Shown piece by piece: positions 47,233 to 49,894 of a stretch of DNA of 64,000 bases. A program made the translations under genes and the position numbers. This stretch comes from an uncultured Pelagibacteraceae bacterium (GTDB lineage: Bacteria > Pseudomonadota > Alphaproteobacteria > Pelagibacterales > Pelagibacteraceae), in contig CACBNI010000003.1 in the NCBI GenBank assembly GCA_902540595.1, positions 1 through 64,000 of the forward strand, given 5' to 3'. The first letter of the stretch is position 1. Each line of letters starts with the position of its first letter. Below the pieces are notes generated by a model, which saw only the letters and a program-made list of their open reading frames with translations, did no database searches and had not been told where the DNA came from.

Positions 47233-49308
47233 ATGAGAGTACCATATTTAAAAAAAAAACCAGAAATAAAATCTTGTCACAATATCGAATGGGAAGATAA
47301 TTATAGCTGGATACACCAAAAAAATATATTAGAAGTTTTAAGAGATAAATCAAAATTAGACCCTGAAGTTAAAAAATACTTAGAAGAAGAAAATGATTAT
47401 GCAGAACATCATTTAAAAGACACAAAAAAATTACAAATAAATTTATTTAATGAAATTAAAGGTAGAATAAAGTTAGATGATGAATCTCTTCCCTATAAAG
47501 ATCATACATATGAATATTGGACAAAAACAACCGAAAAAGGAAATTATTCTATTAAACTTCGTAAAGAAATTGGGACAAATATAATTGAAGAAATATGGAA
47601 TGGAGATAAAGAAAAAGAAAAATTAAAAACTGAGTATTTTGGTGTTGGTGATTTAGAAGTAAGCAATAACGATAAATATCTTGGGTATTCATTAGATCTA
47701 AAAGGCTCTGAATATTACACAATTTATATAAGAGATATAAAAACTAATAAAATTATTTCTAAGGAAATTACAGAGACATCTGGTGGAATAACTTTTAGTT
47801 TAGATGATAAATATATTTTTTATTCAAAACTAGATGAGAATCATCGTGCTAGAAAAATATACAGGCATGAAATTGGAAACTATCAAAATAAAGATTTATT
47901 AATTTTTGAGGAAAAAAGTGAAGCCTTTACAGTAAGCATAGGACTAAGTTCAGATGAAAAGTATTACTTTATAAATACATCTGACCACAACACTTCAGAA
48001 CAGTATTATTTTAATATAGATGAGGCAAAACCTTTACCAAAACTTATAATGAAAAGAGAAAGAGGGGTTCTATATTCAACCAGTTCATGGGATGGTAAAT
48101 TTTATAATCATACAAATAAAGATGCGGAGGATTTTAAAATCGATATTACAGATAATTTAGAAAAACAAGATTGGAAGCCTTTTATTCTGCCAAAAAACGA
48201 GGTGTTAATAGGAGGTCTAACTTTTCTAAAAAATTGGATTATTAGATCTGAAACATCTAACGCTCTCGATAAATTATTTGTTAGAAATGTTTCAACAAAT
48301 ATCGAGGAAGAATTAATTTTTTCAGATGAAAAAATCTATGTTCCTGGGGTATCGCTAACTCAAAGAAATAGAGATACTGATGAAGTTTATCTTGGATATT
48401 CTTCACCTAAAACACCTTCAAGAGTTTATAAATTCAATTTATCCAATAAGTCTAAAAAGTTAGTTAAAGAACAAGAGATTCCATCAGGTCATAATTCAGA
48501 AAATTATATAGTTGAAAGATTGGAATTTAAATCACATGATGGAAGATTGGTACCATTAACAATCACAAGACACAAAAAAACTAAAATAGACGGATCGGCG
48601 AATTTACTACTCTATGGTTATGGGTCTTATGGTAGTTCAATGAGTCCAAGTTTTTCCTCCACAAGATTAAGTTTAATAGATAGAGATATCATCTGGGCAA
48701 CTGCTCACATTAGAGGTGGAATGGAAAAAGGGATGAAATGGTGGAAAGAAGGAAAGTTAACAAACAAAAAAAATACTTTTGAGGATTATATTCATGCAGC
48801 ACAATATTTAATTGAAAATAAATTTACAACTAAAGGTAAAATAATTGGTATGGGTGGGTCAGCAGGAGGATTACTTATGGGTGCAGTAGTAAACCAGTCT
48901 CCTGAGTTATTTTTAGGAATTATAATGGCTGTTCCATTTGTAGACTCTTTAACAACAAATCTGGATCATTCTCTGCCTTTAACGGTTGGAGAGTTTGACG
49001 AATTTGGAAATGCAAAAGATAACAAGGAACACTTTGATTATATTTTTTCATATGCTCCATATAATAATATAAAAAAAAAAGATTATCCTCACATGTTAAT
49101 AACAACTAGTCTAAGCGATAATCGAGTTTTGTTTGATGAGCCTGCAAAATTTACAGCTAAATTAAGAGAATATAAAACTGATAATAATATGCTTTTATTA
49201 AAAACAGAAATGAATGCAGGTCATGGTGGTAAATCTGGTCGAGATGGCGCTATTGAAGAAATTGCAATCGACTATGCGTTCGCATTAAAAATTGCAAAAA
49301 AAATCTAA
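47233..49308 (+). CDS. ptrB: Oligopeptidase B (S9 prolyl oligopeptidase family)
   Basis: 691 residues. The N-terminal beta-propeller is followed by an alpha/beta hydrolase domain. Catalytic Ser is in GMGGSAGGLLMGAV (about residue 544), Asp in LITTSLSDNRVLFDEPAK, and His in MNAGHGGKSGRDG. LLYGYGSYGSSM and HIRGGMEKGMKWWKEGK are typical. It cleaves short peptides after basic residues in the cytoplasm or periplasm; no signal peptide is seen. Confidence 0.93.
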   Translation: MRVPYLKKKPEIKSCHNIEWEDNYSWIHQKNILEVLRDKSKLDPEVKKYLEEENDYAEHHLKDTKKLQINLFNEIKGRIKLDDESLPYKDHTYEYWTKTTEKGNYSIKLRKEIGTNIIEEIWNGDKEKEKLKTEYFGVGDLEVSNNDKYLGYSLDLKGSEYYTIYIRDIKTNKIISKEITETSGGITFSLDDKYIFYSKLDENHRARKIYRHEIGNYQNKDLLIFEEKSEAFTVSIGLSSDEKYYFINTSDHNTSEQYYFNIDEAKPLPKLIMKRERGVLYSTSSWDGKFYNHTNKDAEDFKIDITDNLEKQDWKPFILPKNEVLIGGLTFLKNWIIRSETSNALDKLFVRNVSTNIEEELIFSDEKIYVPGVSLTQRNRDTDEVYLGYSSPKTPSRVYKFNLSNKSKKLVKEQEIPSGHNSENYIVERLEFKSHDGRLVPLTITRHKKTKIDGSANLLLYGYGSYGSSMSPSFSSTRLSLIDRDIIWATAHIRGGMEKGMKWWKEGKLTNKKNTFEDYIHAAQYLIENKFTTKGKIIGMGGSAGGLLMGAVVNQSPELFLGIIMAVPFVDSLTTNLDHSLPLTVGEFDEFGNAKDNKEHFDYIFSYAPYNNIKKKDYPHMLITTSLSDNRVLFDEPAKFTAKLREYKTDNNMLLLKTEMNAGHGGKSGRDGAIEEIAIDYAFALKIAKKI

Positions 49309-49317
49309 TTTTTTAAT

Positions 49318-49348
49318 CTTGAAATATCAAAAGTAATTCCTAAATAAT
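49318..49348 (+). promoter_or_regulatory. Putative RpoH (heat shock) promoter of hsp20
   Basis: CTTG, 17 bases, then CCTAAATAAT, with the same spacing as the groESL site. Against CYTATNTNNG the -10 part has two mismatches. Transcription would begin near 49354 and give a leader of about 55 bases. Inferred from the motif and from lying before a heat shock gene. Confidence 0.5.
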
Positions 49349-49352
49349 ACTT

Positions 49353-49408
49353 GTAAGTCGCCTAATGGGGCTTGCTAAATATAAACTTGCTTAACAAAGG
49401 AGGATATT
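49353..49408 (+). promoter_or_regulatory. Candidate ROSE-like RNA thermometer in the hsp20 leader
   Basis: Two hairpins can be drawn. The first (49353-49375) pairs GUAAG with CUUGC and CC with GG around the loop UAAU, with a bulge and a G-G mismatch inside. The second pairs CUUGCU (49386-49391) with the ribosome binding site AGGAGG (49398-49403) across UAACAA, including one U-G pair and one G-G mismatch. ROSE thermometers of small heat shock genes have just this UUGCU-AGGA pairing with a G-G pair, and a stable hairpin upstream. Drawn by hand, with no folding energy computed. Confidence 0.55.
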
Positions 49409-49855
49409 ATGACAAGTAAGGACCTATCTATATTTAACTCACTAAGACCGTTTTCAATTGGTTTTGACGACATGTTTGATCAGTTTGAAAATATGTTAGG
49501 GAACGGAAATTTGACAATGCAGTCAAATTACCCACCTTACAACATTCGAAAAACAGGTAAGGACAACTATGCAATTGAGGTTGCTTTAGCTGGCTTTAAT
49601 AAAAAAGATGTTGAGGTTGAGTTTGAGGATAATTTATTAACAATTAGAACTAAACAAGTTAATAAATCTGAGAACAGTGAAATTGATGGAGAAATCATTC
49701 ATAAAGGTATTTCTCAAAGACAATTTGCAAGATCATTCACTATTGCTGATGACGTAAAAGTAAATAGTGCTGAGCTTAAAGATGGTCTTTTAACAATAGC
49801 TTGTGAAAGAATTATTCCAGAACATAAAAAGAAAAAACTTATAGAAATTAAATAA
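49409..49855 (+). CDS. Small heat shock protein, Hsp20/IbpA family
   Basis: 148 residues. The N terminus FNSLRPFSIGFDDMFDQFE resembles IbpA-type proteins. The alpha-crystallin domain spans about residues 45-135 (YAIEVALAGFNKKDVEVEF, GISQRQFARSFTIADDVKV, LKDGLLTIACERIIPE). It holds unfolding proteins in a refoldable state. It stands alone between a heat-shock-type promoter plus structured leader and a terminator. Confidence 0.96.
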   Translation: MTSKDLSIFNSLRPFSIGFDDMFDQFENMLGNGNLTMQSNYPPYNIRKTGKDNYAIEVALAGFNKKDVEVEFEDNLLTIRTKQVNKSENSEIDGEIIHKGISQRQFARSFTIADDVKVNSAELKDGLLTIACERIIPEHKKKKLIEIK

Positions 49856-49866
49856 GTTTAACCTTG

Positions 49867-49894
49867 CTTGCGGGGATTTTATCCTCGCAAGTTT
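49867..49894. terminator. Bidirectional terminator after hsp20
   Basis: Stem CTTGCGGGGAT / ATCCTCGCAAG with loop TTT and one G-T pair in RNA, 11 bases after the hsp20 stop, followed by TTTGATT. It can also end the convergent lipoprotein gene, whose stop lies six bases away. Confidence 0.8.

Follow-up and report, generated by a model that had tools for sequence, protein, structure and literature searches.

A short two-hairpin leader of the ROSE type in front of hsp20 in SAR11: a predicted RNA thermometer

SAR11 bacteria, among Earth's most abundant organisms, have just two sigma factors and a small set of regulators, and are thought to rely on post-transcriptional control. One locus in a Pelagibacteraceae (SAR11) genome (1.2 Mb, 88% complete) raises the question of how such control might operate: Does the short leader in front of hsp20, within the window of 64,000 nucleotides analyzed here, sense temperature? 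An earlier note on this DNA had suggested that it is an RNA thermometer of the ROSE type. Our analysis leads to the same view: we estimate a probability of about 0.86 that the hsp20 leader is a short two-hairpin ROSE-type thermometer, which would be expected to act by melting. A thermometer at this gene would couple protein quality control in SAR11 directly to sea temperature, in a way open to experiment. In the literature searched, which took in little of the subscription press, we found no report of a thermometer in SAR11; a 2009 screen for structured RNAs in Pelagibacter, whose main table covers intergenic regions longer than 100 bp with at least 26% G+C, lists none (PMC2704228).

Locus, promoter and predicted start

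The product of hsp20 matches its Pfam family with 61.7 bits (E = 7.9e-17), and orthologues occur in 176 of 247 Pelagibacteraceae genomes sampled. The gene 5' of hsp20 encodes a prolyl oligopeptidase and ends at 49308; the gap between the two (49308-49409) holds the motif CTTGAAA-N14-CCTAAAT (49318-49345) and the two-hairpin leader (Table 1). On the 3' side of hsp20, a GC-rich hairpin has a predicted 12-bp stem over 49866-49892, with a free energy of -17.9 kcal/mol.

Table 1. Features at the hsp20 locus, in coordinates of the window.
Feature	Position	Strand	Basis or remark
-35 element CTTGAAA, sigma-32-like heat-shock promoter	49318..49324	+	CTTGAA in family leaders
-10 element CCTAAAT (CCCATAT in relatives), 14-nt spacer	49339..49345	+	column conservation
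Predicted transcription start	49351..49353	+	spacing to -10 element
Two-hairpin leader	49353-49411	+	on hsp20
Hairpin 1, GUAAGUC[G]CC-UAAU-GGGGCUUGC, nine pairs, bulged G49360	49353..49375	+	fold and covariation
Hairpin 2, CUU-G-CUU AACA AAG-G-AGG, predicted to sequester the Shine-Dalgarno sequence	49386..49403	+	predicted; aligned to ROSE_3 via start codon
ROSE motif CUUGCU, anti-Shine-Dalgarno	49386..49391	+	CUUGCU in 167 and CUCGCU in 4 of 171 leaders
Shine-Dalgarno AGGAGG	49398..49403	+	sequence; nearly all leaders have AGGAG(G/A/U)
hsp20, small heat-shock protein, 148 aa, regulated gene	49409..49855	+	Pfam PF00011
GC-rich hairpin, likely terminator (putative function)	49867..49891		between hsp20 and convergent gene

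The motif upstream of the leader fits the pattern of a heat-shock sigma-32 promoter, for which the E. coli consensus is CTTGAAA-N11-16-CCCATNT. CTTGAA is present in 151 of 170 Pelagibacteraceae leaders and starts exactly 35 nt 5' of hairpin 1 in 133 of them, while most displayed leaders without it have ATTGAA at that place. A CCCATATAA-like box lies 14 nt after this element in family leaders, and the columns from -14 to -7 ahead of hairpin 1 are 57-87% conserved across 171 leaders. From the spacing to the -10 element of this conserved sigma-32-like promoter, we place the start at about 49351-49353, well upstream of 49386; a start downstream of 49386 would, by the earlier note, have spoken against a thermometer. 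The transcript would then begin with the first bases of hairpin 1 and carry a leader of 56-58 nt. Sigma-32 has been reported for SAR11 (PMC13198564); a search for RpoH in this 88%-complete genome gave no match above cut-off.

Conservation and covariation of the two hairpins

Folding predicts two hairpins in the leader, at the places where the earlier note had put them. In hairpin 2, residues 49386-49392 pair with 49397-49403 and G49389 faces G49400, so that CUUGCU is predicted to pair with AGGAGG across a G-G mismatch, as had been proposed. The upstream hairpin, described earlier as GUAAG/CUUGC, is also present, but its stem is longer than that description, comprising nine pairs and a bulged G (predicted fold (((((((.((....))))))))) ). 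The repetition of CUUGC in this stem, which the earlier note had pointed out, proved incidental: most relatives have CUUAC there.

Considered alone, the sequence from the window argues only weakly against a chance resemblance in an A+T-rich leader. Its folding z-score is -1.8, with 12 of 200 shuffles folding equally well; shuffling the upstream bases gives Shine-Dalgarno pairing as good in 45 of 1000 trials; and the 1.2-Mb genome has a single CTTGCT-N3..12-AGGAG, at this leader, although the reversed control pattern also has a single occurrence in it. These unremarkable statistics count in favour of chance. The comparative evidence for the two-hairpin leader is, at the level of sequence, decisive, because the motif is found in every scored leader, hairpin 1 covaries, and 34 compensatory changes maintain its pairing. 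Chance accounts for none of these and is scarcely credible; we rejected it on the conservation of the motif and the covariation of hairpin 1.

We gathered 176 leaders, from 14 Pelagibacteraceae genera and a second family of the order, and scored 171; the five others are divergent and lack the exact pattern (three from the second family with UCGCUU, one from a homologue at 39% protein identity, and one unrelated match). The earlier note had made its proposal depend on conservation of CUUGCU in relatives, and all 171 scored leaders have CUUGCU or CUCGCU, always upstream of AGGAG/GGAGG. The motif is intact in all 35 leaders of other Pelagibacteraceae genera, at Hsp20 identities down to ∼50%. In those genera the linker ahead of it is less constant, with conservation of 50-65% at most of its six bases. 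Hairpin 2 is nearly invariant, leaving little covariation of its own. The CUCGCU relatives have a bulged G in hairpin 2 in the predicted fold, and an alternative CCUU/AAGG pairing is possible in some relatives (AACCUUGCUAAC).

Two further observations concern the more distant leaders. In the second family of the order, an upstream hairpin (with a bulged G in L030) is retained together with a UCGCU motif. At the 39%-identical Hsp20 homologue (L178:1451-1506), the upstream hairpin is kept and the motif is changed to CUGUCU before AAAGGAGG.

Hairpin 1 provides the covariation. Across 60 distinct sequences its positions are paired in 96.3% of cases, with a covariation score of 0.424, compared with 0.025-0.133 when the partners are slid. 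A tree built from 158 hsp20 genes gave 34 independent compensatory double changes, compared with 0-5 in slid controls; a MAFFT alignment, in which the CCUUGCUAAC type is shifted by one column, was set aside for the counts. Many of the pairs are U-G, including those at positions 6 and 7, which indicates a structure that forms in RNA only and not a DNA palindrome. This bears on the reading of the inverted repeat as a DNA operator for a heat-shock repressor, which is how rhizobial ROSE was itself first understood (PMC4166951). The repeat does lie just 3' of the promoter, as an operator might; however, an operator would keep its sequence, whereas here the arms vary freely while pairing, with its many RNA-only U-G pairs, is kept. 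We consider a DNA operator highly improbable, and rejected it on the covariation of hairpin 1.

Kinship with known ROSE elements

The leader shares several characteristic features with ROSE elements. The core UUGCU (167 leaders) or UCGCU (4 leaders) is imperfectly paired with the Shine-Dalgarno sequence; in the predicted 3' hairpin an unpaired G49389 stands opposite G49400; the upstream hairpin has the bulged-G core of RF00435 and RF02523; and the whole precedes hsp20, with a conserved promoter 5' of hairpin 1. We regard the bulged-G core of hairpin 1, to which the earlier note did not refer, as the best evidence of ROSE kinship.

A search with the Rfam ROSE models, proposed in the earlier note, gave a divided result: ROSE_3 (RF02523) aligns end to end with the leader, with the start codon in register, but it scores 20.4 bits, short of the gathering threshold of 43. 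Over 4227 families this match has an E-value of 0.3, which corresponds to ∼7e-5 for one family in the 2 kb searched. Because the E. coli ibpA leader, a proven ROSE element, scores 20.8 bits against the same model, 20.4 bits is what a distant true relative gives, and the sub-threshold score shows only that the Rfam sub-models are lineage-specific. A bulk Rfam scan of 20 relatives returned just one ROSE_3 line (22.4 bits, E = 2.6), so Rfam alone cannot carry the case. Over the whole genome, RF02523 passed over the leader at its prefilter step and gave nothing above noise. A search of 190 alphaproteobacterial genomes with RF00435 found typical rhizobial-type leaders, and none in SAR11.

It is instructive to compare the leader with the known systems. 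The nearest in layout is the short ROSE element of Pseudomonas ibpA (RF02523), which likewise has two hairpins behind a sigma-32 promoter in a leader of ∼60 nt (61-62 nt in Pseudomonas) (PMC3669281). In both, a G bulges from hairpin 1 ahead of CC...GG, hairpin 2 sets U(U/C)GCU opposite the Shine-Dalgarno sequence, a small heat-shock gene follows, and the start codon lies outside the hairpins; in SAR11, hairpin 1 is shorter and A+T-richer, and hairpin 2 lacks the extended stem. The earlier note had called the leader a minimal ROSE variant, which describes its form correctly, but the architecture is not new: it is known from Pseudomonas (PMC3669281), and the SAR11 leader is a further member.

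Rhizobial-type ROSE (RF00435) has an almost identical first hairpin (consensus CC-UUAU-GG, with the bulged G), one pair shorter, and shares the UUGCU motif and the location on hsp20 genes of Alphaproteobacteria; it differs by its middle hairpin and by the long lower stem of its ribosome binding site (RBS) hairpin, neither of which is found in SAR11. The E. coli ibpA element (RF01832, ROSE_2) contains a bulged-G hairpin with an identical dot-bracket and the loop UGAU in place of UAAU, UCGCU opposite AGGAG, and a sigma-32-type promoter, and has one hairpin more than SAR11; the Rfam ROSE_2 model omits the bulged-G hairpin. A bulged G before CC-loop-GG is common to the first hairpins of SAR11 (49360), rhizobial-type, Pseudomonas and E. 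coli elements (L182; ROSE and ROSE_3 consensus). ROSE-G resembles the leader in that a G faces a G in the Shine-Dalgarno stem, but ROSE-G has CUGCU with two C-G pairs and was described on ABC-transporter genes, whereas SAR11 has CUUGCU with a U-G pair (PMC12857270). CUUGCU or CUCGCU stands in all scored leaders, in place of the CUGCU, double bulged G and two C-G pairs of ROSE-G.

Temperature response and the same leader on other genes

We calculated the response of the leader to temperature with ViennaRNA. The mean unpaired probability of the Shine-Dalgarno sequence rises only slowly, from 0.21 to 0.33 between 4 and 50 °C, which counts against the thermometer, though proven ROSE elements behave alike in the model and such folding does not discriminate. 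At 37 °C, hairpin 2 has a predicted stability of about -3.1 kcal/mol in the window and of -3.6 to near zero in other family members, compared with -4.6 for E. coli ibpA, -6.4 to -10.3 for rhizobial-type ROSE, and -9.1 kcal/mol for the ROSE_3 consensus (about -3 versus -8 to -9 kcal/mol in a second comparison). All of these energies are rough, and the G-G opposition is poorly modelled. The lower stability than in E. coli, rhizobial-type and ROSE_3 elements is what would be expected if the set-point, and with it the predicted opening of hairpin 2, were shifted down in a marine organism. The SAR11 hairpin is among the weakest ROSE hairpins compared, and such leaders offer a natural series for the shift of the set-point with habitat.

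These results suggest the following mechanism. Heat stress, through a heat-shock sigma factor, would yield an mRNA with the element as its first 56-58 nt. Hairpin 1 would form first and stay folded, probably guiding the folding of the leader and protecting its 5' end, as the Pseudomonas work suggests. Hairpin 2 would place CUUGCU on AGGAGG, in a helix made weak by the G-G opposition and the U-G pair; at normal sea temperature it would block the ribosome, and warming would open it and permit translation of Hsp20. In Pseudomonas ibpA it is hairpin 2 that melts, hairpin 1 stays folded, and thermoregulation is intact after deletion of hairpin 1 (PMC3669281).

The same parts could be read without any thermal role, with hairpin 1 merely stabilizing the 5' end, at which it is predicted to begin, and hairpin 2 an ordinary weak structure over the RBS, in keeping with its low predicted stability. 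This leaves unexplained the conserved CUUGCU, its ROSE-typical U/C variation, and the recurrence of the leader on hsp20, dnaK and rpoH described below, and we judge it very unlikely.

A different alternative retains temperature sensing and moves the sensor: the leader would be mainly a binding site for Hsp20 itself, recognized through hairpin 1, with feedback as in E. coli IbpA, and temperature would be sensed through the loss of free Hsp20 to aggregates and not through melting of hairpin 2. The core and bulged G of hairpin 1 are indeed conserved far beyond the needs of pairing. E. coli IbpA represses its own translation via the 5' UTR, for which it needs Arg93 and an aromatic residue at position 34 (PMC10474464); at the positions matching Arg93 and Tyr34, 176 of 177 Hsp20s from the order carry Arg and Tyr; however, Lys98, a positive charge needed for repression in E. 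coli, is mostly Ser in them. Hsp20 binding alone does not explain the universal CUUGCU opposite the Shine-Dalgarno sequence, and the hairpin 1 deletion in Pseudomonas, which kept thermoregulation, also stands against it (PMC3669281). We regard this alternative as unlikely in place of a ROSE-type thermometer, alongside which such binding may act.

To follow the leader beyond hsp20 of SAR11, we used two covariance models. The first (R1) was trained on Pelagibacteraceae leaders alone; a single misregistered row in its hairpin 2 makes the model weaker but should not introduce bias. In the window's genome it found one convincing copy, on hsp20 (5e-17; next best 0.09), and it has matches in 36 of 40 near-complete Pelagibacteraceae genomes. 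Over 240 alphaproteobacterial genomes, 15 out-of-family matches were examined, among which seven lie on hsp20, two on dnaK and one on rpoH. The second, broader model (R2) gave 21 out-of-family matches over 385 genomes (13 on hsp20, five on dnaK, two on rpoH and one other); its training set took in nine such matches, including one dnaK and one rpoH, and 11 of the 12 matches outside training are on heat-shock genes.

On dnaK, a ROSE-like two-hairpin leader stands directly 5' of the gene in one family with reduced genomes (that of G478) and in two other families (L242-L268, L208, L215, L235, L238, L240). In the G478 family, 32 of 41 genomes have a match, and all 27 loci fetched are on dnaK. In these leaders hairpin 1 shows compensatory changes of its own: the covariation score is 0.454, compared with at most 0.153 for slid partners, in an alignment that was itself fitted to the structure. 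Their motif is a variant, UUUGCC/UUCGCC, and stands opposite an AAGGGGA Shine-Dalgarno sequence. The same leader lies directly before rpoH in two different alphaproteobacterial families (L216:1501-1553, + strand; L234:1501-1561, - strand). The identities of DnaK and RpoH (NF005143, above cut-off) were checked against NCBIfam. In B. japonicum, rpoH1 probably belongs to a ROSE-led operon. A 2014 review described ROSE as always associated with small heat-shock genes (PMC4166951), and ROSE-like elements were later found on ABC transporter genes (PMC11342760). In the literature searched, again mostly outside subscription papers, we found no report of ROSE on dnaK; with dnaK bearing the leader in one whole family and rpoH in two other families, ROSE would reach into the central genes of the heat-shock response.

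This distribution suggests a wider, speculative role for hairpin 1. The bulged-G first hairpin might be a recognition element on hsp20, dnaK and rpoH mRNAs across Alphaproteobacteria, and on ibpA in Gammaproteobacteria, read by a factor acting in trans, for which the small heat-shock protein is a plausible candidate; ROSE leaders would then sense both temperature and aggregate load, forming an RNA-level heat-shock regulon in genomes stripped of most transcriptional control. We offer this tentatively, as a minority reading that is rather doubtful, because the Pseudomonas leader remains thermoregulated when its hairpin 1 is deleted (PMC3669281).

Both models also gave false matches, on an ABC-ATPase gene (L205), on atpE (L219, L220) and on others. 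The first of these, from another alphaproteobacterium (L205:1501-1608), has a strong ROSE-like hairpin 1 (GGCGGUCGCCUAAUGGGGCCGCC) ∼85 nt before the ABC-ATPase gene, without a clear RBS hairpin. The window has a hairpin of its own at 145-205, UGCAUC...GAUGCA, just 5' of the gene for ATP synthase subunit c; the weak thermometer-model matches there look like false positives, and the same hairpin recurs before the subunit c gene in other Pelagibacteraceae genomes, including L219 and L220.
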